Of a stretch of 40,723 nt of DNA, positions 2,876-16,137 are shown piece by piece (the stretch's first letter is position 1; each line of letters begins with the position of its first letter). Position numbers and translations under genes: made by a program. Under the pieces are notes generated by a model that saw nothing but the letters and a program-made list of their open reading frames with translations, was not told the DNA's origin and searched no databases. Source of the stretch: a virus. The stretch is from positions 1 through 40,723 of the IMG/VR virus record IMGVR_UViG_3300025010_000127; one strand, 5' to 3'.

Positions 2876-3580
2876 GTGGGCAAATTTATTAACCTAATCG
2901 GGGAGCAATACGGGAAACTAACTGTGTTAAGTCAGCTACCTAACAAAGGTAAACACACCATATGGTCTTGTAAGTGCTCCTGCGGCAATGTAGCTGCCGT
3001 GGCATCTACCCACTTAAGATCAGGTCACACACAGTCTTGTGGCTGCCACCGTGAGGAAGTGCGGGTATCAAGTAACACAACCCACGGAGTGTCAGACTCC
3101 CCAATATACCCTATTTGGTTGTTAATACTAAGACGGTGCTATTCTGAGAAAGATAGGCTGTACGCCCGATATGGTGGCAGAGGCATTAAGGTTTGGGATA
3201 AGTGGCTGGATAATCCTGCTGAGTTTGTCTCTTGGTGTCAGAATAACGGGTGGGTGAAAGGACTGGACATTGATCGAGAAGATAACAACGGGGACTACAC
3301 ACCAGATAACTGTAGGTTTGTGACCAGGTTGGTGAATAACCATAACAGAGAGTATGGCAGTAAAACTAGAAACTCTAAAACTGGGATTGCCGGCGTATCG
3401 CCCAGTGGTACTGGATTCCGAGCTTACATCGGCTCCAGAGTTTTTAGTGGAGCCCCGGAAGGTGCACCGGGTAGGCAGATAAATTTAGGTGTTTTTAGCA
3501 CTGTAGAAGCTGCACTTAAAAGTCGAAACAATTTTATTACAGAGCATAGTTTGCCTAATAGAATTCAGGAGGTAATATGA
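2876..3580 (+). CDS. HNH-type homing endonuclease with AP2-like DNA-binding domain
   Basis: A freestanding mobile endonuclease of about 234 residues. The N-terminus has a Cys cluster that could bind zinc ('CKCSCGN' at 32-38, 'TQSCGC' at 52-57). The centre has the pattern typical of phage HNH/AP2 proteins: 'ARYGGRGIKVWDKW' (97-110), 'GLDIDREDNNGDY' (129-141), 'NCRFVT' and 'NNHNR'. The C-terminus ('SKTGIAGVSPSGTGFRAYI' to 'NLGVFSTVEAAL') resembles an AP2 DNA-binding domain. GTG 2876 is chosen because GGAGG at 2863-2867 is eight bases away; ATG 2870 is too close to it and ATG 2849 lies before it. The gene is visibly more A+T-rich than its neighbours, and its end supplies the ribosome site for sbcD, both signs of insertion into the operon. 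Confidence 0.75.
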   Translation: MGKFINLIGEQYGKLTVLSQLPNKGKHTIWSCKCSCGNVAAVASTHLRSGHTQSCGCHREEVRVSSNTTHGVSDSPIYPIWLLILRRCYSEKDRLYARYGGRGIKVWDKWLDNPAEFVSWCQNNGWVKGLDIDREDNNGDYTPDNCRFVTRLVNNHNREYGSKTRNSKTGIAGVSPSGTGFRAYIGSRVFSGAPEGAPGRQINLGVFSTVEAALKSRNNFITEHSLPNRIQEVI

Positions 3581-4599
3581 TAAAGGCAATCAACGACATA
3601 CATCTTGATGTCAATCGAGTAGGCGGCACGACGGAGACATCGAGGGAGGCCTTGCAGCTCTACGCTGTCAATCAGTTCAAGAACCTCCTTGCCCGCAGCA
3701 AGGACGCGGACCACCTGCTCATCCTCGGGGACCTTTTCAACAAGGCCAAGGTAGAAGAGTGGGTGTTTCTTGAGGTGTACAAGGCCCTGGTGAGTTTTAT
3801 GGCCGACGCTCCAAATTGCGTCCTGATCCTGGTTAGAGGCAACCATGATTCACGTAGTAAGGACAGGCAGAACCTCTGCTCCCTTGAGCTACTCGCCAAC
3901 ATCAGCCAGGGCAACGTCGTGTTCGTCTTCGACGCCCCCTACCTGTTCGAGGACGACGGCAAGGTCCACTACGTAATCCCGCATATGTTCAACCAGGAGC
4001 AGTTCGACGCAGCCGTAAGCGCGGTCACGGACGAGGTCGACTTCCTGTACCTACATAGCAATGTTGATAATCCTTTTGCGGTAGGGGATCACAGTATCAA
4101 TATCTCGAAGGACCAGGTCAAGACCTTGCACGACAAGGGCGTCACGGTCATCTGCGGCCATGAGCACCAGCGCCGCCGACCGTTCCCGAACGTGCATGTG
4201 ATTGGTAATCAGTTCCCGACAAGTATCTCAGACTGCAAAGGCAACGACGAGAAGTTCCTGCTGAGAATTGAGAACGGGCAGATCGTTAAAGAGCGGACTT
4301 GGACCGCCGCCGGCAACTATTACGACGTGCCAGTAGAACTGTTGGACACCGTCCCGGACACAGCCCAGTTCGTCCGGGTCCACGGCGAGGTCGCAAAAGC
4401 GGATTTTGCCAAGGTCATTCAGGAGGTCGACAAGTTCCGCCGGAAGTCGTCGGCGTTTGTCGTCAGCAACGCCGTCTCGGTCGTGGTCGAGGGCAAAGTC
4501 CTGCAGGCGGAGGAGGTCACCAACATCAATGTGGTTGAGTTGCTGATCCAGGCCGTACCGGAGAAGTACCGGGAAAAGGTAGCGGCGTGTAGGGCATAA
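3577..4599 (+). CDS. sbcD: SbcD/Mre11-like nuclease (gp47-like)
   Basis: A 340-residue calcineurin-like phosphoesterase with all the expected metal-binding motifs: 'DIHLD' (7-11), 'GDLFN' (51-55), 'GNHDSR' (88-93), 'YLHSN' (His160) and 'GHEHQ' (194-198). With SbcC it forms a manganese-dependent exonuclease/endonuclease that opens hairpins and trims broken DNA ends; in T4 the gp46/47 pair starts recombination-dependent replication. The partner gene follows 20 bases downstream. Start ATG 3577 overlaps the end of the homing endonuclease by 4 bases and uses AGGAGG at 3567-3572. Confidence 0.88.
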   Translation: MIKAINDIHLDVNRVGGTTETSREALQLYAVNQFKNLLARSKDADHLLILGDLFNKAKVEEWVFLEVYKALVSFMADAPNCVLILVRGNHDSRSKDRQNLCSLELLANISQGNVVFVFDAPYLFEDDGKVHYVIPHMFNQEQFDAAVSAVTDEVDFLYLHSNVDNPFAVGDHSINISKDQVKTLHDKGVTVICGHEHQRRRPFPNVHVIGNQFPTSISDCKGNDEKFLLRIENGQIVKERTWTAAGNYYDVPVELLDTVPDTAQFVRVHGEVAKADFAKVIQEVDKFRRKSSAFVVSNAVSVVVEGKVLQAEEVTNINVVELLIQAVPEKYREKVAACRA

Positions 4600-4619
4600 C
4601 AAATTAAAGGAGCAAACAG

Positions 4620-7094
4620 ATGCCAACAATAGACAGCATTACCCTGACAAATTTTGGGATTCACAGAAAACGATTTTTCCAATTCGGCCCCGGATTTAAC
4701 GTCATCCGCGGCGCCAACGAGGCTGGCAAGACCACCATCCTGGAAGCGATCGCCATTGCCTTCTTTGGCAGCAGCGCCCTCCGGGGCGGCTGGGAGGATG
4801 TGGTCACGGAAGGCGAGAAGGTCGGCAGCCTGGCCATCAACCTGCGCTATGGCCAGTACACTGTTCATCGATCCAAGGCATCTGCTTCCGTTGTCAGCGA
4901 CGACGGCAAGGTCGAGGTCTCTGGCCACGGCGACGTCACGGACTTTTTCCTGCGCCACTTCGGCATCGAGAAGGGCACAGAGCGAAACGTCATGATTGCC
5001 CAGCAGGGCAAGATCCAGGGGATACTGGAGTCCGGCAACGCGGACGCTACCAAGTTCATTGAGAACCTCGCCAACTTTGACCAGATCGATCAGCTGGTCG
5101 AGCGGATGAAGGCCAAGTACCCAGTCATTGACCAACAGGCCCTGAATCAACAGATTGCAGCCCTCGAGGAAAAATTGACTGCGAAGGAAGCGGAAGGGCT
5201 GCCGGATCTGGCTGCTGACCAGAAAAGCCTGAAAGAGTGGGAGGTAAGAGTCGACGCCGCAAAGAACAAAGTCGCTGCTGCGGTCGACGTCCTGGCTCAG
5301 CAGAACACAGAGCTGGAAACTCTGCGGAGCCAAAAGCGGGAGTTCGACAGCGCGGTCAAGGCCGTAGCCGACCAGGAGCAAGCCGTAAGTGATTTGCAGG
5401 GTAGCCAGAAGAAGATAGCCGATCAGGTCAAAATTCTGGAGACGGAGATTAATTGCTCCAAGAGTCGGCTGGATGGCGCCCGGGCGTTCCTTGCCGATCT
5501 GGAGAAAAAGCAGACAGCCTACCACGATTACCGGCGGGTTGTCGACTTCGTCGGCTGCGATGATACGTGGGACGAAAGCCTGGAGGACCTCCACAAAGAA
5601 CTGGAGGGTACAAGGAAAGCGGCAGTAGTGCTGCAGGCGGAACTAAAGGCCAGTGAGAAGAAGGCGGCTACGCTTGAGGCCTCGCCGATAATAGACAAGC
5701 AAGTGGAGGCTCTGCAGGCAAAAGCAGCGGACATCTCCAAACAGAAGGCAGTGCTGAAAGCGATGACCGGAGACTCCGAGGAGGTGGCCAAGCTCAAACA
5801 AGAGATCGCTGACGTGGGCACCCGCATGGCTGTGGAGAAATCCAAGCTGATGGCCGAGACTACTTGTCCGACCTGTGGGACAGATCTCAGCGAGAAGGCT
5901 GCAGCTATCAACGACAGCGTCAACGACGAGCTGGTGCTCTTAAATGATACCAGGTTGGCCCTGGAGGCTAATCTCAAAGCTGCCTATCAAAAGCAGCGTG
6001 ATGCCCGTGCGCAGCAGGAAAAAGATCTGGAGAAGGAATTCGACCGCACCCTTAAGAAGACTGAGGAGTTGATCGTTATTCTGGAGCAGGCTCGGGCGAA
6101 GGGACTCGGACAGATCAACGAGAGTATTGGTAAATTGAGGGAAACCCTTACTGAAACAGAAGAGACTGTCAGGATACTGGAAGGTATCATCACGGTCCAG
6201 GACAAGGTCGTCGCCCTGTTGGAGACTGTTACATCTACTTCTCTATGGGTGAATAAGGACGTCTACCCCTGGAGCGTATCTTGGGGCGCAGACGCTCCGG
6301 AGAAAACCAACCAGCAGCAGATCGACAAGGCCAACAACGACGTGGTCTACTGCACGGGCTTGGCCACCCAGTTGGAGGGGAAGGCCAAGGAGTTTCATAA
6401 ATGCTGCGCGGAGTTGTCTGCGGCCGAGGTCAAGCTCACGGGCTTGCGGTCCCAGTCGGCCAAGCTCAAGGACCCATCCGAGCAAATTGAGGTGCTTGTA
6501 GTTTCAATATCCACTGGCAAGGTACAGTTGGTGGAGCTACAGACAAAGCTCAACGCCCAGATCGAGGGCGTGAATGCGGCTGCGACCAAACTTGCCCTCG
6601 ACCAGCAGACCGTCAAGAAACACGGCGAGGACGTGGCCGGGATCAAGGGCGACATCCCGGGCGTCAGAAACCAGATACTGAAGTCCGCGGAGAACAACGC
6701 CCTGCATAGGGCGGTCGCGGAGGCCCGCACGACCGTAATCGAAGGCGTCTGGAACACGCTCTTGACCGCGGCCAACGAGTGCTTCTCTTCTATTCGCGGC
6801 ACCGTTTCCGACATCACCAGGGAGGGCAAGGTCTTTAAAGTCAACGGCATTAAAACCGTCAGGCTGTCGGGGTCGACGCTGGACTCCCTCGGGTTGGCGA
6901 TGCGGGCCGCGATCAGGGCGGTGTTCTGTCCGGCCACGGATTTTGTTTTGTTAGATGAAATTGCAGCAGGGATGGACGTTGAGAGAACCGCAGCGGCCAT
7001 GGCCCAGGTAGCGTCCCTTGGAATTCCTCAAGTAATTCTGGTCACTCACGAAGAGGTCAGCGACGGATTGGCAGACAATATTGTGGAGGTGTGA
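4620..7094 (+). CDS. sbcC: SbcC/Rad50-like ATPase (gp46-like)
   Basis: An 824-residue SMC-like ATPase and partner of SbcD. It has Walker A 'GANEAGKTT' (31-39), a long coiled coil split by a zinc hook 'CPTCG' (Cys416, Cys419), a signature region 'RLSGSTLDSLGLAMR' near 750, Walker B 'FVLLDEIAAGMD' near 775 and an H-loop 'LVTHEE' near 807. All active elements are present, so the protein should be functional. The coiled-coil arms are shorter than in cellular SbcC (about 1050 residues), as is usual for phage gp46. AAAGGAG lies just before ATG 4620. It probably tethers and processes DNA ends for recombination-driven replication with the RecU-like resolvase and ligase. Confidence 0.9.
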   Translation: MPTIDSITLTNFGIHRKRFFQFGPGFNVIRGANEAGKTTILEAIAIAFFGSSALRGGWEDVVTEGEKVGSLAINLRYGQYTVHRSKASASVVSDDGKVEVSGHGDVTDFFLRHFGIEKGTERNVMIAQQGKIQGILESGNADATKFIENLANFDQIDQLVERMKAKYPVIDQQALNQQIAALEEKLTAKEAEGLPDLAADQKSLKEWEVRVDAAKNKVAAAVDVLAQQNTELETLRSQKREFDSAVKAVADQEQAVSDLQGSQKKIADQVKILETEINCSKSRLDGARAFLADLEKKQTAYHDYRRVVDFVGCDDTWDESLEDLHKELEGTRKAAVVLQAELKASEKKAATLEASPIIDKQVEALQAKAADISKQKAVLKAMTGDSEEVAKLKQEIADVGTRMAVEKSKLMAETTCPTCGTDLSEKAAAINDSVNDELVLLNDTRLALEANLKAAYQKQRDARAQQEKDLEKEFDRTLKKTEELIVILEQARAKGLGQINESIGKLRETLTETEETVRILEGIITVQDKVVALLETVTSTSLWVNKDVYPWSVSWGADAPEKTNQQQIDKANNDVVYCTGLATQLEGKAKEFHKCCAELSAAEVKLTGLRSQSAKLKDPSEQIEVLVVSISTGKVQLVELQTKLNAQIEGVNAAATKLALDQQTVKKHGEDVAGIKGDIPGVRNQILKSAENNALHRAVAEARTTVIEGVWNTLLTAANECFSSIRGTVSDITREGKVFKVNGIKTVRLSGSTLDSLGLAMRAAIRAVFCPATDFVLLDEIAAGMDVERTAAAMAQVASLGIPQVILVTHEEVSDGLADNIVEV

Positions 7095-7349: not shown

Positions 7350-7770
7350 AATGCAGGAACTGCTCAAGTCCGCAGCCCCGCTCAAGCCGCACCACAAGGC
7401 CTACATCGAGGCCGTGAGCGTCCTCTCCGGCTCCGTCGCCTTCGGGGTTGCCGGCGCCAACCCAGACAAGGATTACGTCCTGCGTCAGAAACAATTCGAC
7501 GGTATGGGCTTGGGCATGGATGTGCTCCGGTATGGCGCCGGCGAGCCCTACCGATTTGATGGTTACAGCTCCTGGTATGTGAAGTGTGAGAACGGCGAGG
7601 TTTTCAACCTGCTGGTGGCTGAAACAGAAGACGTCTACAATCAATACGTCTTTGCCACGGTATCGATAAAAGACAGGATGGCCATGGATGCGGAGTACGC
7701 CGAACGAATTAAGGACAAGGCGTTCAGAGTGTCGGAGTTCCAAAAATTTAAGAAGGAGTGTGTTGGATGA
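7333..7770 (+). CDS. Nucleotidyltransferase-fold protein
   Basis: A 145-residue protein with the minimal nucleotidyltransferase signature 'LSGSVAFGVAGANPDKDYVL' (31-50): Gly33-Ser34 followed by the Asp45-x-Asp47 pair that would bind metal. Start ATG 7333 is chosen because GGAGG at 7322-7326 is six bases upstream; a longer frame back to 7207 lacks such a site and overlaps the upstream gene more. It overlaps the DNA ligase by 4 bases, so the two are probably co-translated. Proteins of this fold transfer nucleotides to nucleic acid, protein or small molecules. The substrate here is unknown; DNA end repair with the ligase is inference from position. The third acidic residue of the fold was not identified with certainty. 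Confidence 0.6.
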   Translation: MPVTNEMQELLKSAAPLKPHHKAYIEAVSVLSGSVAFGVAGANPDKDYVLRQKQFDGMGLGMDVLRYGAGEPYRFDGYSSWYVKCENGEVFNLLVAETEDVYNQYVFATVSIKDRMAMDAEYAERIKDKAFRVSEFQKFKKECVG

Positions 7771-9167
7771 AAGAAATTCTAAGAAAAGCAGCAGAGATCA
7801 ACGCCGCGAACAAGGCAGGAAAACGTAAGCTCGTTCTTGACTATATGGGAGATCCGGCCTTCAGCCGCTTTATGGAATACTGCCTGGACGAATCTCTGAC
7901 GTTCAACGTCAGCAGGGTCGTAGCCACAGACCCGATCGAGGGCGACTTCTACGACCTGCTCGACGTCTTGAACGCCCAGGGGTCCGCCAGCAAGGCCCAG
8001 AAGGAACAGTTGGCAGGTCTCGGCAGCCAGTCCCCCGAACACTTGGAGGTCTTAAACAAGATCCTCCGAAAGAACCCGGATTGTGGATTCTCCGCGAAGT
8101 CACTGCACGAGATCCTGCCCGGGGAGATCCCGTATTTTGGTTATCAACGGTGCTCGACGGACGCCGAACTCGACCGCATCTTTTCAACACCGGTTGAAGG
8201 CACTAACTCTATTTATGGGATTTCAGAGCTTAAAGAAAACGGCCTCTTCATCAGGATCAAGATCCCGACCGGCGGCAAGCCGATATTTGAATCCAGGAAC
8301 GGCAAGGTGTTCGACTTCGGCGGCTACTTCGACGAGAACTTCCTCGCCCTCGACCCGGGCGTCGTTAACGTCGACGGCGTGGACGAGGACACGTTCGCCT
8401 CCGGAATCGTGTTCGAGGGCGAGGGCTTGGTCCTTTCCGGAGACGACAGCTTCCCTTGGCTGCCACGGACACTCGGCAACGCCACGATCAATAAATTCCA
8501 GGGCGGGTACGGCAGCCAGGAGGAGCTTAGCCGCATCAGTTTTTCCCTCTGGACCTGCCTACCCTACGACCATTATTTCGACGGCTACAGCCCACTCTCT
8601 GTCCAGCAACGGCGAGAGTGTGTCGCCCAAGTTATCGACGCCGCCACAATCGATTACGACATCATTCACCAGACAGAGACCCGGCTGGTGCGGACAAAAG
8701 AAGAAGCCTGGGATCACTACTACGAAGTGCGCTCCCGGCCAGTGCCGGAAGGCGAAGAACCTTACGAGGGCACCATCGTCAAGCACCCGGACGAGGTCTG
8801 GAAAGACGGCACCAGCTTGTACATGGCCAAACTCAAGGCCGTCAAGGAGTGTGAGGTCGAGATCTACGGCTGGGAGAAGGGCAAGGCCGGCGGCAAACAC
8901 GAACACAGATTGGGCTCGTTCCACATCAGAAGCTCCTGCGGCGGACTGGTAGGCAAATGCTCAGGCATGACCGACGCGATGCGTGACGAGGACCCTGAGA
9001 CGTTTATCGGCAAGATCTGCACGGTCAGGTTCAATGCCGTATCCAAGTCCAAGGATCCGGACAAGCCCAGGTCATTCGACCATGCTAGATTTGTCGAGAT
9101 CCGCCCAGACAAGAACGTGGCCGACGACCTTGAATACATCTTGAAAGTGAAGTCAAAGAAGAGATAA
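7767..9167 (+). CDS. ATP-dependent DNA ligase (T4 gp30-like)
   Basis: A 466-residue ligase with an N-terminal helical region, an adenylation domain and an OB-fold C-terminus. Motif I is 'ELKENGLFIR', with Lys156 as the AMP-accepting lysine; note K-x-N-G instead of the usual K-x-D-G. Later motifs are 'FESRNGKVF', 'GIVFEGEG' (motif III), 'EGTIVKHPD' (motif IV) and 'MAKLKAVKE' (motif V). It seals nicks using ATP. The start is ATG 7767: AAGGAG at 7753-7758 is eight bases upstream, whereas GTG 7758 lies inside the ribosome site. The stop of the nucleotidyltransferase overlaps it (ATGA). An RNA ligase is less likely given the length and the large C-terminal domain. Confidence 0.85.
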   Translation: MKEILRKAAEINAANKAGKRKLVLDYMGDPAFSRFMEYCLDESLTFNVSRVVATDPIEGDFYDLLDVLNAQGSASKAQKEQLAGLGSQSPEHLEVLNKILRKNPDCGFSAKSLHEILPGEIPYFGYQRCSTDAELDRIFSTPVEGTNSIYGISELKENGLFIRIKIPTGGKPIFESRNGKVFDFGGYFDENFLALDPGVVNVDGVDEDTFASGIVFEGEGLVLSGDDSFPWLPRTLGNATINKFQGGYGSQEELSRISFSLWTCLPYDHYFDGYSPLSVQQRRECVAQVIDAATIDYDIIHQTETRLVRTKEEAWDHYYEVRSRPVPEGEEPYEGTIVKHPDEVWKDGTSLYMAKLKAVKECEVEIYGWEKGKAGGKHEHRLGSFHIRSSCGGLVGKCSGMTDAMRDEDPETFIGKICTVRFNAVSKSKDPDKPRSFDHARFVEIRPDKNVADDLEYILKVKSKKR

Positions 9168-9188: not shown

Positions 9189-9683
9189 ATGAATAGGATT
9201 GAATTGGGCGACATGGCCAAGGACAAACTCACGGGCTTTACCGGTTACGTTGGCGCCCGCTTCATCAAAGCTTTCAGTGTGGCCCGCTTTCGATTGGATC
9301 CAGTGAAATTAAAGGACGACGGAAGTGTACAGGCATCCAACTGGTTTGACGAAACCGTATTAGAGGTTGTTGAGAAGCAGTTCATAAAACCCGAGCCACC
9401 TGTACAACACACGTTTCAGTTGCTGGACAAAGTAAAAGATTCCGTCACCAACTTCTCTGGAAGTATCATTGGATTTATAGAGCACGCCAGCGGCTGTGTC
9501 ACCGCTATTGTGGTTCCTGCAGAACTCAAAGACGGCAAACCGCAAGACGAGTCGGATTTGCCCGTCCAACAACTGGTCTTGGTGGTGCCAAAGGCAGTGC
9601 CAAATGCAGCGCCAAATGCAGCGCCACAGGAGAAGACCTTTACTGGTGGCCCGCGAGTAAGCCAGAACATCCATGGCCGGTAG
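9189..9683 (+). CDS. Tandem SH3-like phage protein, two internal repeats
   Basis: A 164-residue protein made of two copies of one module. Copy 1 (about 5-60) has 'LGDMAKDKLTGFTGYVGA' and ends 'WFDETVLEVV'. Copy 2 (about 78-132) has 'LLDKVKDSVTNFSGSIIGF' and 'PAELKDGKPQDESDLP'. Single copies are common in phages as small proteins of unknown role with the GD-x-VxDxxTGFxG pattern. A Pro/Ala-rich tail contains a short tandem repeat (about 12 bases) at 9597-9628. AAAGGAG lies just upstream of ATG 9189. Confidence 0.65.
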   Translation: MNRIELGDMAKDKLTGFTGYVGARFIKAFSVARFRLDPVKLKDDGSVQASNWFDETVLEVVEKQFIKPEPPVQHTFQLLDKVKDSVTNFSGSIIGFIEHASGCVTAIVVPAELKDGKPQDESDLPVQQLVLVVPKAVPNAAPNAAPQEKTFTGGPRVSQNIHGR

Positions 9684-9888
9684 CACCGAGTGCCAGTGCC
9701 CGTACTGCGGAAGGGCTGCCTTGTGCAGCCCTTCCAAGGGCCTCTGGTGCGACAACTGTAAAAACGGCTTCTGGGAACAGGAGCGAAATGTCCATTCAAA
9801 GATGGGAGACCAATGTGACCAAGCCAAGAGTGCGCTTTTGCTGGGAGTGCGGGCGGCAGCTCCGAGGCAACCACCACGTCGAGGTTGA
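9673..9888 (+). CDS. Small zinc-ribbon protein
   Basis: A 71-residue frame starting at ATG 9673 within the end of the preceding gene. Residues 9-12 and 26-29 form two Cys pairs ('CPYCG', 'WCDNCKNGFW'), a four-Cys zinc ribbon. The C-terminal 30 residues look unlike a conserved domain and overlap the next zinc-knuckle gene by about 100 bases in another frame. The ribbon part is convincing; the tail may be non-conserved, or the two frames may be one gene split by an indel. Confidence 0.55.
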   Translation: MAGSTECQCPYCGRAALCSPSKGLWCDNCKNGFWEQERNVHSKMGDQCDQAKSALLLGVRAAAPRQPPRRG

Positions 9889-9997
9889 GGTCGACGGCCA
9901 CAACAGAATCCTGCACAAGGACTGCTATCAAAAACTATTTCCAGAGGAGGCGAAACGTGCCAAGAAAAGTAACAATGGAGGACTTCATCATCCCTGA
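9788..9997 (+). CDS. Small zinc-finger protein
   Basis: A 69-residue frame from ATG 9788 (GGAG just upstream), or a shorter form from GTG 9815. It has 'FCWECGRQL' and 'ILHKDCYQKLF', giving a Cys-x2-Cys ... His-x2-Cys set suited to one zinc ion. It overlaps the upstream zinc ribbon heavily and the next gene by about 40 bases. A DNA- or protein-binding role is possible, but no family is assigned. Confidence 0.5.
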   Translation: MSIQRWETNVTKPRVRFCWECGRQLRGNHHVEVEVDGHNRILHKDCYQKLFPEEAKRAKKSNNGGLHHP

Positions 9998-10211: not shown

Positions 10212-10409
10212 GTGTTTGGAGACTACCAGTACAGCAGGCCGTACACCCGAAAGACCACCTACTTGACAGCACCAAATGGACCTGTAAAAGTGCAGGAGGT
10301 CCGGCTAATTGACTTACTTCACTTTGGCCAGACCGTAGGTACCTTTACTCTAGACCTTGAAGAACATGATGAGGATTCGGCCGCCAACAGAAGTCACCTC
10401 ACCCCATAA
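10212..10409 (+). CDS. Hypothetical protein, 65 residues; last gene of + operon
   Basis: A GTG start at 10212 with GAGGAG just before it inside the end of the previous gene. It encodes a small Tyr- and Thr-rich protein with no recognised domain. Its stop lies 11 bases inside the last gene of the opposing - operon, so the two transcripts converge and overlap. Confidence 0.5.
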   Translation: MFGDYQYSRPYTRKTTYLTAPNGPVKVQEVRLIDLLHFGQTVGTFTLDLEEHDEDSAANRSHLTP

Positions 10410-10602
10410 CCTCAAAACGAATGGCGTGCCGCTCGCACGCCTCTTTGGCCTTGCACAGACCGGTCCAGATCTCCGCGAACTCGGGGTCATCCTTGATGAC
10501 CATCGCGACCTTACCCCAGACTCCGAACAAGGGATACGCCGCAACACACGGCTCGGTACAGCCTCGACCGCATTTCAATGGATCAGCCGCTACTCTGTGC
10601 AT
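10399..10602 (-). CDS. Small Cys-rich ferredoxin-like protein (second of pair)
   Basis: A 67-residue protein with five Cys: C11-x3-C15-x3-C19, then Cys50 and Cys56 in 'CKAKEACERHAIRFE'. The ending 'CERHAI' mirrors 'CPEHAI' of its upstream neighbour and the C-P-x-x-A-I ending of bacterial ferredoxins, but the C-x3-C spacing differs from the standard C-x2-C-x2-C. It may bind an Fe-S cluster or zinc. Start ATG 10602 has GAGG six bases upstream, and the first 20 bases overlap the previous gene. It is the last gene of the late operon. Function unknown. Confidence 0.55.
   Translation of the reverse strand: MHRVAADPLKCGRGCTEPCVAAYPLFGVWGKVAMVIKDDPEFAEIWTGLCKAKEACERHAIRFEVMG
10423..10446 (+). terminator. 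Possible terminator closing the + operon
   Basis: A perfect 7-bp stem 'ggcgtgc' / 'gcacgcc' with a 5-base loop, followed by 'tcttt', lies 14 bases after the last + stop codon. The T tract is weak, and the same bases encode part of the second ferredoxin-like protein on the other strand, so the hairpin could be accidental. Confidence 0.3.
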
Positions 10603-10798
10603 CGGCTTCCTCTATATGGATGGCGTGTTCCGGGCAGGATTGCATCACAAACGCTATCTTCCATTTTGTCTCCGCGTCTCGTAGCACCCAATCGGCCAAG
10701 GGGAGCCTGCCTTCGCACTCAGACCGGAATCCTTTGAGCAGAATTTCACACATCCCGCAGTCTTGGCATTCTTGTTTGTCAGTGGTGAGGAAGTACAT
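10583..10798 (-). CDS. Small 4Fe-4S ferredoxin-like protein (first of pair)
   Basis: A 71-residue protein with the classic single-cluster pattern: 'CQDCGMC' (Cys11, 14, 17) and later 'SCPEHAI' (Cys55-Pro56), plus one extra Cys28. This is the C-x2-C-x2-C ... C-P signature of 4Fe-4S ferredoxins, with a longer than usual middle section (about 37 residues). It could carry electrons or stabilise a small fold. Start ATG 10798 lies just after the endolysin stop; its ribosome site is weak, so it may rely on coupling. A longer frame to ATG 10855 would overlap the endolysin by 55 bases and is less likely. Its position after the lysis genes is unusual. Confidence 0.6.
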   Translation of the reverse strand: MYFLTTDKQECQDCGMCEILLKGFRSECEGRLPLADWVLRDAETKWKIAFVMQSCPEHAIHIEEADAQSSG

Positions 10799-10800
10799 AA

Positions 10801-11280
10801 TCAGTCCGTGTCGGCGGCGCCGTAACGGAGGTTCTGCGCAATACGCTTCACCCATCCTCGGGCATTCGGCAGGAAGTTCTTACAGTCGGCCATGAAATCC
10901 AGGCGCTCAGCCAAGATCAACATCACCAGATCAGAATCTGAGGTGGAGGCAAGCTTTGCTCTGGTAACAGGTCCGACAACACCGTCATCTTTCAGCCCCA
11001 GGGCCTGCTGCAGCTGCTTGATCGCCGTCTTTGGCCCGGAGTTCACTCCAAAGTCGAAGAGCTGGAAGGCAAGTCCGGGCGTGTAGTATTTATCGAGCTG
11101 TAACGGTGTGATAAAATCGGCAATATAGATTGCTTCAGCCTGCTCGACCGTAAGAGATCTGATGTTGAGCTGAGGATACGCTCGTTGACTGATCCCCCAT
11201 TTAGTGGGTCCACCGACCGGATCGTCCCAGTATCCCCCCTCATGCCCCAGACAGCGTTTTAGCCACGTTTGAACATTCAT
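10801..11280 (-). CDS. Endolysin, GH108 N-acetylmuramidase with peptidoglycan-binding domain
   Basis: A 159-residue lysozyme of the glycoside hydrolase 108 family. The N-terminus has 'HEGGYWDDPVGGPTKWGIS', with Glu14 as the expected catalytic acid. The C-terminal half ('LFDFGVNSGPKTAIKQLQ', 'DGVVGPVTRAKL') is the peptidoglycan-binding domain normally fused to this family. It cuts the host wall at the end of infection. No signal peptide is seen, so export should depend on the holin. Start ATG 11280 has GAGGG about five bases upstream. The upstream neighbours encode membrane proteins of the lysis cassette. Confidence 0.88.
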   Translation of the reverse strand: MNVQTWLKRCLGHEGGYWDDPVGGPTKWGISQRAYPQLNIRSLTVEQAEAIYIADFITPLQLDKYYTPGLAFQLFDFGVNSGPKTAIKQLQQALGLKDDGVVGPVTRAKLASTSDSDLVMLILAERLDFMADCKNFLPNARGWVKRIAQNLRYGAADTD

Positions 11281-11456: not shown

Positions 11457-11525
11457 TCATGCCGACCAACCGCAAAAAGGGCAGGTGCATTGGATTAGTT
11501 TGGCGCCACAGTCAGGACAGGTCAC
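11457..11525 (-). CDS. Micro-ORF: 22-residue zinc-knuckle peptide
   Basis: Reading leftwards from GTG 11525, a 22-residue frame encodes 'TCPDCGAKLIQCTCPFCGWS', two Cys-x2-Cys pairs about ten residues apart: a complete zinc ribbon in miniature. It ends at the TGA at 11457-11459. The start overlaps the end of the upstream gene, and GAGGG lies only three bases before it, which is closer than ideal. The Cys pattern is hard to get by chance, but expression is unproven. Confidence 0.4.
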   Translation of the reverse strand: MTCPDCGAKLIQCTCPFCGWSA

Positions 11526-11949
11526 GTTCCCTCGCCGGTTTGTTGTCGTGCCGCATTTTTACGGTTGCCAGGATCTCCAGTACACTATCCTGCCGCTCGG
11601 TGTTTTTTGCTACGGCTGTGTGGATGGTGGCATAATCGTCTCTGAGCAAACTGATGTCCTCACGCAATAACCGGAAATGATCATCGCCACGGGCAAGGCG
11701 CTCTGTCAAAAGCTTGTCACTGGCGATCAGCCGCTCTGTGATAATGTCCTGGCAGCTTTTCTGTGCGGGATGGCACATGTCTAAGGTGACAATACCCTTC
11801 TCTTCAAGACCTTTTCTCCACGACTTTAGTGAGCCAAGATCGTATTGGTTTTTTGATACAGCCACAATGCCAAGGACCATAGCGGATATCTCTTTCCAAT
11901 ACGTGTGCAGCCAAGTGAAAATTATTGGCTCGTCGGTCATTGATTTCAT
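11512..11949 (-). CDS. Membrane-anchored coiled-coil protein, lysis cassette
   Basis: A 145-residue protein with one hydrophobic segment near residues 13-31 ('WLHTYWKEISAMVLGIVAVS') and a long charged helical region at about 70-130 that should form a coiled coil. A spanin-like or holin-associated role is possible, but no lipobox is seen and no spanin family is recognised. ATG 11949 forms an ATGA overlap with the upstream holin-like gene; ATG 11940 has better spacing from AAAAGG and may be the true start. Confidence 0.55.
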   Translation of the reverse strand: MKSMTDEPIIFTWLHTYWKEISAMVLGIVAVSKNQYDLGSLKSWRKGLEEKGIVTLDMCHPAQKSCQDIITERLIASDKLLTERLARGDDHFRLLREDISLLRDDYATIHTAVAKNTERQDSVLEILATVKMRHDNKPARERDLS

Positions 11950-12476
11950 CCTTTTCCGGCAATCATGGTTTTCATTGAGGTGTACGCGCCCATACCTTTG
12001 CCGATTTCCCGCAGACCAGCATAAGTAAAAGGTAGAGCCAAAAGTAGGACGAGAATCTCTACACTTGGAGTTGTCGTGAAAGCGTAGAAAATGGCCGCAG
12101 CAAGCGCCGCTGTGGCATGTGTCGGACGAACGTACTTTATCCCGCCATCAGCTTTATCTCCAGCCCTGACAGTCTCCTGCGTCTCGTGGTGCTCTTTTTG
12201 CCTATCATCCAGTTCGAGCCGCGTCATTTCTTCCAAATGCAAGCGATTGGTAGCCTCGTTCTGATACCACAACTCTTTCAACTTAACAATGGCCTGTGGA
12301 TCACCCTGCAATACAGTCATCGCCTGATCAGGGTCATTGGTCCCTGTAACCGACGACACCATTGAAATACCAGCAGCAATTGCCCCAGGAACATTACCCG
12401 ATACAAGCGAACCGACAAGTGCCGCTCCTGGCCCTGCATTCTTTTTTAGCCATCCACCAATATCCTGCCAGCTCAT
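11946..12476 (-). CDS. Holin-like protein (3TM gene-transfer-release type)
   Basis: A 176-residue protein. The N-terminal part is Gly/Ala-rich ('LVGSLVSGNVPGAIAAG') with amphipathic character, the middle is a charged helix ('HLEEMTRLELDDRQKEHH'), and two hydrophobic segments lie near the C-terminus ('TAALAAAIFYAFTTTPSVEI', 'LVLLLALPFTYAGL'). This layout fits the phage holin family first noted in gene transfer agents. It should open the inner membrane for the endolysin. The start is ATG 12476, since GGAGG is six bases upstream; ATG 12482 touches the ribosome site. The previous small gene ends in TGATG. Confidence 0.6.
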   Translation of the reverse strand: MSWQDIGGWLKKNAGPGAALVGSLVSGNVPGAIAAGISMVSSVTGTNDPDQAMTVLQGDPQAIVKLKELWYQNEATNRLHLEEMTRLELDDRQKEHHETQETVRAGDKADGGIKYVRPTHATAALAAAIFYAFTTTPSVEILVLLLALPFTYAGLREIGKGMGAYTSMKTMIAGKG

Positions 12477-12592
12477 CAACATCCTCCTATATTCACAAAC
12501 CAAATACCCAGGCACATCACCAGGAGCACGATGGCTATGGCGAGATTCAATAGTGTGCTTGCAGTTCGTTGTTCTTGGTCTTTTGAGTTCAT
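12476..12592 (-). CDS. 38-residue single-span membrane peptide
   Basis: A short frame from ATG 12592 gives a charged N-terminus ('MNSKDQEQRTAS') and one hydrophobic span ('LLNLAIAIVLLVMCLGIWFV'), and ends in Cys. Its TGA shares bases with the next ATG (TGATG), and the GGAGG for the holin-like gene lies inside it, so coupling is likely. No strong ribosome site precedes it. It could be a small holin or antiholin-like peptide; this is inference. Confidence 0.5.
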   Translation of the reverse strand: MNSKDQEQRTASTLLNLAIAIVLLVMCLGIWFVNIGGC

Positions 12593-14224: not shown

Positions 14225-16137
14225 TATGCCACCTCCGCTAATACAAGTTTTGCGTCCGAAATCACCTTAGCGTTCACTTCGATGAAGCATTGGGCGGTTC
14301 TATTTGGCGCTATCCCTGTTACTGAGTAAACCATGAAGTTCAGTTCGGTACCTATCGTATCCCTGAACCTGAACCCTTCAGACTGGTAGGCTGCTGCGGG
14401 GAATACCAGTGATTGATTAGAAACATGGAATTGATAGCCTACGGAGTTCAGGGACTCACCTACGTTCAGTTCGATCAAATCACCGGCAGCCAGGTTCAGA
14501 GTCACGCCGTTTCTAACAACGCTGGTATTGATGGCTACTTCAATATTGAAAGCGGTCTTGAAATGCACAACAGCGCTTCTTTGTACCGGGATATGATCAG
14601 AGTTGAGATGATCCACGGTCAATAGGTAATCCGTAGCTCCTGAGAGTTTTTTCTCCGTGGGCACGGTATAGGACAGGCCATCAACCGTTTCATCTATAAC
14701 TGCCATATGGGTTTCAGCCCGGATAAGTCGAACCCTAGATTTTGCTATGTCGTAGTCCAACTTCTTACTGGTAACCTCCTCTATCGACATCCAAGTGCCG
14801 TCAGAACGCGCGGTAAATGTGCCGCCGCTTATGAAAGTACAACGCAGTTTAACTTGGGTATCCACGGCGGGAGTATAGATTGCTAAAGCCGTCCCCTCAA
14901 ATGCATACCCATTGGCATTACCAACAGAAACTAAATGACCTGCCCCTGAATTAGGTAAAGCAACGTTAGATGAGTTAACGAATTTATAGTTTATATCGGC
15001 AGCTACATCTGTAAAAGTCGCGCCAATGCCAGCAGACAGCCTATATGTAACTCCAGCCTTCAAGGTTACATAAGGCGACGTGAACCCTAGATTACCAGAC
15101 ATACTGTCAAAAGTGATATCTGAATTGGCCCCAAGGCCAGCCTGGCCGGTTGTTTTCAGACATACTAGATATCCTTGGGTCTCTCCCTTAGCACTCGTAA
15201 TCGTCGGCGTCAACGACTGCCCAACCGAGTTATCTGCCGGAGCCGTCACGTTGATCGCCGGAAAGATCAACTGCGTAGGAGTCAGGGCAATATGCTCCTC
15301 GGTGATCACATCAATCGCCCGCCACGGTAGAGTCTCGTCCTGGTTGGTATAAATTTTGAAGGTCTCAGCTGGATCAATCGTCTTAATCCACCAGGTCATT
15401 GCCTCGCCTTCAGGGTAATCGGCCTCATCTACATTGATGAAAAGTTCCTGCCGTTGGGTATATATAGACAAGTCTTCTGCATCCATATCGGCGGGAGTTT
15501 TCAATTTATCGTAGAATTTAATATCATCATAGAGTCCAGTTCCAGCAGTCTCGTCAGCCTCCAGAGCGGTAAGCTGGATGTTGCCATAGTATGCCCTGAC
15601 TCTGACACCGGCGTGGGCCTGCACTTCCGCAAGAGTCATCCCGAGGTGATAATAAATCCTTTGCAGTATGTACGTTACGGCAGGCACTGCCAGATATCGG
15701 TATGAACTGGTTTCAAGAAGGTGCGTGAAATCTTGCACCACCAACGGAGCAGCACCATCGACAGGTACTCCCCACGTACCATCAATCAGGCCGCTCTTGT
15801 CTCCAGCGTTGCCATGGGTAACAACCCGCTTTTCGAGCGGCCCCATTTTTGGCATGTAGACCGTGCCGTTGCCACCTGCAGTGGTCCATGGGGTTCCAGG
15901 AAGGATAGACTCGTATTCGTGGCCTGCAACTTGCACTGCAAGGTGATGACCTTTGAGCCGGATTTTGCCCACGCCGTGAAGGTCGAGGCCAGCAGATGGC
16001 AATAACGAACTCACAGCAACGCTTTTACTCGACCCCTCAGGCCCCATTGTGGTATCTGAAGGATCGATTACGTGCATTCGAGCGTTGGCTATTTTCGTCG
16101 CATCAGTTAATTCGGTATATTCTGATAATTTTGACAT
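14224..16137 (-). CDS. Tail fibre / tip protein with Ig-like domains
   Basis: A 637-residue protein rich in Thr, Ser, Gly and beta strands. It begins 'MSKLSEYTELTDATKIANAR', a start common in phage tail fibre proteins, and residues 295-320 ('VTAPADNSVGQSLTPTITSA') look like the start of a fibronectin/Ig-like domain. The remainder is a series of beta domains with no catalytic motif recognised. It sits directly before two lectin-like adhesins in a coupled operon, which suggests it is part of the host-recognition fibre. AAAGGAAT lies before ATG 16137. Confidence 0.65.
   Translation of the reverse strand: MSKLSEYTELTDATKIANARMHVIDPSDTTMGPEGSSKSVAVSSLLPSAGLDLHGVGKIRLKGHHLAVQVAGHEYESILPGTPWTTAGGNGTVYMPKMGPLEKRVVTHGNAGDKSGLIDGTWGVPVDGAAPLVVQDFTHLLETSSYRYLAVPAVTYILQRIYYHLGMTLAEVQAHAGVRVRAYYGNIQLTALEADETAGTGLYDDIKFYDKLKTPADMDAEDLSIYTQRQELFINVDEADYPEGEAMTWWIKTIDPAETFKIYTNQDETLPWRAIDVITEEHIALTPTQLIFPAINVTAPADNSVGQSLTPTITSAKGETQGYLVCLKTTGQAGLGANSDITFDSMSGNLGFTSPYVTLKAGVTYRLSAGIGATFTDVAADINYKFVNSSNVALPNSGAGHLVSVGNANGYAFEGTALAIYTPAVDTQVKLRCTFISGGTFTARSDGTWMSIEEVTSKKLDYDIAKSRVRLIRAETHMAVIDETVDGLSYTVPTEKKLSGATDYLLTVDHLNSDHIPVQRSAVVHFKTAFNIEVAINTSVVRNGVTLNLAAGDLIELNVGESLNSVGYQFHVSNQSLVFPAAAYQSEGFRFRDTIGTELNFMVYSVTGIAPNRTAQCFIEVNAKVISDAKLVLAEVA

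Follow-up and report, generated by a model that had tools for sequence, protein, structure and literature searches.

A probable divergent [4Fe-4S] ferredoxin and a conserved orphan cysteine-rich protein encoded directly after the endolysin of a phage

Gene organization downstream of the endolysin

The DNA analyzed was a viral stretch of 40,723 nucleotides (IMG/VR record IMGVR_UViG_3300025010_000127, positions 1 to 40,723; hereafter the window), in which two small genes, ORF1 and ORF2, lie beside a GH108 endolysin gene. The features of this region are:

11946 to 12515, minus strand: phrog_1544 protein with hydrophobic segments at the C-terminus, candidate holin
11512 to 11949, minus strand: 145-aa protein with a hydrophobic segment at the N-terminus
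11428 to 11240, minus strand: 62-aa ORF between the 145-aa protein and the endolysin
10801 to 11280, minus strand: GH108 endolysin with peptidoglycan-binding domain (Glyco_hydro_108, E=1e-15; phrog_315, E=1.1e-39)
10798 to 10583, minus strand: ORF1, 71 aa, ATG at 10798, stop at 10583
10602 to 10399, minus strand: ORF2, 67 aa, ATG at 10602, stop at 10399
10423 to 10441, minus strand: GC-rich hairpin of 7 pairs followed by a T-rich tail (ATTCGTTTTG), within the ORF2 codons for ACERHAI
10212 to 10409, plus strand: final gene of the convergent early block, overlapping the ORF2 stop by 11 bases

The minus-strand genes run in the order candidate holin, 145-aa protein, 62-aa ORF, GH108 endolysin, ORF1 and ORF2. 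The endolysin was above the Pfam cut-off for Glyco_hydro_108 (58.5 bits versus 21.2). The product of 11946-12515 is a possible holin, and the 145-aa protein, for which the family search returned no matches, is possibly a spanin-like or lysis protein. Re-reading the positions on the sequence confirmed the coordinates, strand, order and overlap of the pair given in an earlier annotation made from the sequence alone (the sequence-only reading). It also confirmed that the pair directly follows the endolysin and, by gene order, is the last of the leftward late block, as all genes to the left of the pair are convergent plus-strand genes.

Only 2 bases separate the endolysin stop (10801) from the ORF1 ATG (10798), and the ORF1 and ORF2 frames share 20 bases, an arrangement which makes translational coupling from the endolysin through ORF1 to ORF2 likely. 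The poor ribosome-binding site of ORF1 is consistent with its being coupled to the endolysin. The ribosome-binding site of ORF2 is good, with AGAGGAAG before the ATG and AGAGGA inside the end of ORF1.

The hairpin at the end of ORF2 sits about 14 bases past the point where the convergent plus-strand gene stops. In the sister phage described below, the hairpin has a single difference, the closing G-C pair being G-T. It may act as a terminator for the two converging transcripts, which we treat as a lead only, since the count of terminator-like sites in the region was not above that in shuffled sequences. If it ends the late transcript, the ORF2 mRNA would be cut before its stop codon.

Several other features were observed on the plus strand of the window. 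SbcD-like and SbcC-like genes lie in tandem (3577-7094) and are followed by an ATP-dependent DNA ligase gene (7758-9167). The gene at 1052-1786, which adjoins that of a dATP/dGTP diphosphohydrolase (492-1028), matched thymidylate synthase only weakly and over part of its length (31.8 bits, residues 138-219). Two small ORFs with zinc-ribbon-like C-x2-C pairs (9673-9997) lie at the end of the early block.

Conservation of ORF1 and ORF2

Both genes are also carried by two other phages. The phage of IMGVR 3300025154_000201 is near-identical to the one studied here (99.97% over 10 kb) and was consequently not counted as independent. The sister phage, IMGVR 3300025011_000068, was the sole independent relative found, so that the comparisons below are of two independent sequences in all.

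ORF2 differs from its sister counterpart by 20 base changes, 19 of them at third positions and all synonymous (dN 0, dS 0.68), and the probability of all 19 changed codons being synonymous under random changes is about 7e-13. Other frames on both strands fared far worse, the best antisense frame having 15 changed codons that were synonymous and 5 that were not. Codons 1-48 hold 19 of the 20 base changes, all silent, which argues that the protein itself is under selection; the remaining change falls in the last 19 codons. ORF2 is under strong purifying selection.

ORF1 is 68% identical to its sister counterpart over 63 aligned residues (62% by full-length alignment), with 38 of the 60 base changes at third positions. 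The changes are unevenly placed: codons 1-26, which encode the cluster loop, contain 12 synonymous changed codons and 1 nonsynonymous, versus 12 and 19 in the remainder. In the comparison of positions 10586-10798 with 5001-5207 of L003, ORF1 evolved at two speeds: codons 1-26 encode a nearly unchanged stretch of protein and codons 27-63 one that has diverged strongly, whereas the ORF2 protein, despite the overlap, was unchanged. ORF1 and ORF2 are two real, conserved protein-coding genes, co-oriented with the endolysin.

Distribution of the gene pair

Among 29 IMG/VR loci whose GH108 endolysin is related to this one, the pair was present only in this phage and the one sister, and the general pairing with GH108 endolysins for which the sequence-only reading had proposed a search was not borne out. 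The same two phages were the only ones to show the pair when the near-identical record was searched together with records, many of them fragments, whose major capsid proteins were related (49-100% identity). A related record of 48 kb, whose capsid protein is 84% and ligase 77% identical, has other genes between the ligase and the tail genes; such an endolysin, ORF1 and ORF2 are all absent from that region. Taken with the count over the 29 loci, this record indicates that the pair accompanies this particular lysis module rather than GH108 endolysins in general.

Searches by tblastn of annotated phages and plasmids identified no relatives of ORF1 or ORF2, the weak matches being partial with E-values of 0.1 or worse. 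Nothing real was found in a scan of genome contigs for the ORF1 pattern, nor in HMM searches of cellular genomes (274 from a single class and 398 from the phylum containing it). These negative searches had no positive control, and the genomes for the HMM searches were centred on Noviherbaspirillum, a tentative choice made only from a 45% endolysin match. Two ORF2 matches with E=0.003 were rejected, as one was inside a long GGDEF-like enzyme and the other spanned a stop codon. These searches yielded no relatives of ORF2 beyond the two phages.

Other small cysteine-rich proteins were observed in related records. The related phage without the pair (L073) has, within what is presumably its lysis region, a gene of its own for a 63-aa Cys-rich protein (15639-15830, minus strand; C-x2-C ... 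HGICPDC). The protein had no Pfam matches, and its HGICPDC ending resembles a tail motif found in many PAS-type histidine kinases. In L022, a small protein with four cysteines (6057-6302) is encoded 600 bases downstream of a 42% identical GH108 endolysin and scored 21.8 bits against the high-potential iron-sulfur protein family (cut-off 22, E 2.4e-4); a weaker match to this family was seen in L023.

Relationship of ORF1 to single-cluster ferredoxins

The translations have the cysteine patterns that the sequence-only reading described, with cysteines at 11, 14, 17, 28 and 55 in ORF1 (C-x2-C-x2-C ... CPEHAI) and at 11, 15, 19, 50 and 56 in ORF2 (C-x3-C-x3-C ... C-x5-CERHAI). By residue shuffling over the 309 window ORFs of at least 40 aa, the ORF1 motif is expected in 0.01 ORFs per window, and the C-x3-C-x3-C...C motif in 0.20, versus the two present. 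The ORF1 motif is significant on its own and the ORF2 motif is not; ORF2 is counted as a gene because of its conservation across phages.

The putative ligands of ORF1 stood up to comparison with the sole independent relative, in which C11, C14, C17 and C55 with its following proline are all kept and C28 is replaced by Tyr. A cluster protein with four ligands would tolerate such an unconserved fifth cysteine.

When a two-sequence ORF1 profile was searched against all of the PDB, the top match was 2z8q, a ferredoxin which we take to be from Pyrococcus furiosus (E=0.0069), aligned end to end (positions 5-65 to 5-66), followed by 1siz, a second P. furiosus-type ferredoxin chain (E=0.32). With ORF1 alone (phmmer), 2z8q was matched at E=0.029 and another ferredoxin, 8amp, at E=0.22. 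The similarity to the solved ferredoxin therefore spans the whole domain (residues 4-65) at E-values of 0.0069-0.029. In the pairwise alignment, 20 of 62 columns are identical with a single 1-residue gap, and the score of 67 was reached by 0 of 2000 shuffles (mean 25, sd 4.6), although the PDB E-values are fairer than this shuffle figure as the pair had been chosen as the best match.

The weak Pfam matches of ORF1 were all to ferredoxin families (Fer4, Fer4_6, Fer4_13 and Fer4_15). ORF1 was under every curated Pfam and NCBIfam cut-off (e.g., Fer4_13, 12.2 bits versus 24.5; Fer4, 14.9 versus 21.1), and its sister counterpart had no Pfam matches. Such a cut-off is a bookkeeping threshold and not a biochemical feature, but because ORF1 falls short of it we file the protein only as a probable ferredoxin. 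The protein is acidic (pI 4.7), has no membrane segment, and carries the four-ligand C-x2-C-x2-C ... C-P pattern in a protein of roughly the 60-70 aa size class. AlphaFold models were of low confidence for both ORF1 (pLDDT 43.9, pTM 0.27) and ORF2 (pLDDT 59.2, pTM 0.41).

Single-cluster [4Fe-4S] ferredoxin of the archaeal type (P. furiosus Fd, 2z8q/1siz; Fer4_13/Fer4_15) shares with ORF1 its length, the C-x2-C-x2-C ... CP pattern, a near-gapless alignment and acidic charge. ORF1 differs in being only about 32% identical, in falling below the curated Pfam cut-offs, in being a phage gene in a lysis neighbourhood and in having no counterpart of the Cys-Pro that P. furiosus ferredoxin carries after its third ligand. 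ORF1 is a probable divergent single-cluster [4Fe-4S] ferredoxin, predicted to fold and work as a small soluble one, and it very probably binds a 4Fe-4S cluster, with C11, C14, C17 and C55 as the putative ligands.

ORF2 and alternative explanations for the pair

ORF2 is an orphan Cys-rich protein by sequence. It matched no Pfam or NCBIfam family and no PDB chain, and its best PHROG match was to one family of unknown function (E 0.06). It lacks the C-x2-C-x2-C ... C-P pattern of ferredoxins, having C-x3-C-x3-C ... C-E instead, and its similarity to ferredoxins was not significant, with 3-5% of shuffles scoring as well. The sequence-only reading had described both proteins as ferredoxin-like. That description was upheld for ORF1, by the end-to-end match to the P. 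furiosus ferredoxin and the four retained ligand cysteines, and did not extend to ORF2, which matched no family and whose likeness to ORF1 or to ferredoxins was within shuffle noise.

We consider it unlikely that both are ferredoxins, with ORF2 a drifted duplicate of ORF1 that gained one residue in each inter-cysteine loop (C-x3-C-x3-C) and lost the proline after the last cysteine. The two genes are alike in size and overlap in tandem, their ends are similar (CPEHAIHIE versus CERHAIRFE), and KAKEACERHAI in ORF2 resembles EAKESCPVEAI, the end of a cellular ferredoxin. ORF2 also has C-x3-Y-P after its third cysteine, a motif of single-cluster ferredoxins. However, homology between ORF1 and ORF2 was not significant, as their score was reached by 5.5% of shuffles (37% using the sister ORF1) and a profile comparison gave a probability of 1.3% in the wrong register, and a ferredoxin match for ORF2 was absent from Pfam, NCBIfam and the PDB. 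The likeness of CERHAI to a ferredoxin end is discounted further because its codons double as the hairpin, so that the RNA may dictate this wording. Many small Cys-rich proteins of phages bind zinc, and it is a tentative possibility that ORF2, and less likely ORF1, is a small zinc-binding regulator acting on the late phase or on host factors rather than an electron carrier. C-x3-C-x3-C is unusual as a cluster motif, and this phage has the two other small C-x2-C proteins noted above, but zinc-finger matches for ORF2 were likewise absent from the family searches, and the end-to-end ferredoxin match and CP ending of ORF1 oppose such a role for it.

The position of the overlapping frames directly after the endolysin, where spanin genes often overlap, raises the question of whether both proteins act in lysis proper, as a timing factor or a spanin pair. 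The pair also travels with this endolysin, and the next relative has a different lysis region with neither gene. Nevertheless, we judge this very improbable: neither protein has a membrane segment (top 19-residue hydropathy of 0.28 for ORF1, 1.02 for its sister and 1.45 for ORF2), no signal peptide or lipobox was seen by eye, and ferredoxin-like sequences have no known lysis role. A two-gene spanin formed by ORF1 and ORF2 was rejected, as neither has a hydrophobic segment and inspection by eye showed no signal sequence.

Proposed roles of the two proteins

The explanation that we favor, in which ORF1 is a [4Fe-4S] ferredoxin carrying electrons late in infection and ORF2 is its companion, is reasonably likely as a whole. 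ORF1 would be made together with the late proteins, and would receive electrons from a reductase or oxidoreductase of the host and hand them on to an acceptor enzyme of the host (or of the phage), helping to sustain the metabolism of the infected cell as is thought for other phage-carried ferredoxins. The window genes that were scanned included no recognisable reductase or enzyme that uses ferredoxin, and we lean only modestly toward ORF1 being an electron carrier. ORF2, made from the overlapping start, is probably not another ordinary ferredoxin but a dedicated companion of ORF1, such as an acceptor, a regulator or a metal-binding partner; that it binds a metal or cluster is slightly favored. 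It is quite improbable that the two proteins form a dedicated redox device, in which an ORF2 metal site of a new C-x3-C-x3-C type would exchange electrons with the ORF1 cluster and so alter host electron flow or report the redox state just before lysis. A link to lysis, or to redox sensing near lysis as the sequence-only reading suggested, is a possibility raised only by gene position.

The plant-type ferredoxins (PetF) of cyanophages are phage-borne electron carriers of the [2Fe-2S] type. They are comparable to ORF1, a probable ferredoxin, in being carried by phages, and differ from it in their cluster and in having another fold. The Lake Baikal Nitrospirota virus VP_99 carries a 4Fe-4S ferredoxin that is 86% identical to the host ferredoxin, indicating recent capture, and that was proposed to act on host metabolism (PMC7678222). 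VP_99 is like the phage studied here in being an uncultured phage with a 4Fe-4S ferredoxin gene, as proposed for ORF1, whereas for ORF1 the search of cellular genomes yielded no relative, and ORF2 accompanies it. Phage-borne 4Fe-4S ferredoxins have therefore been reported (PMC7678222); what is new is the divergence of ORF1 from cellular ferredoxins, the location in a lysis module, the pairing and the conserved orphan ORF2. The open-access literature held nothing closer on phage-encoded ferredoxins beside endolysins.

Strong selection thus maintains, beside the lysis genes of this phage, a very small ferredoxin-like protein and an orphan partner that is conserved even more closely. If the cluster of ORF1 is real, this would provide a simple model of how phages use iron-sulfur proteins late in infection, and the 67-aa ORF2, with zero amino-acid change at a dS of 0.68, would be a good target in the search for a new metal site.
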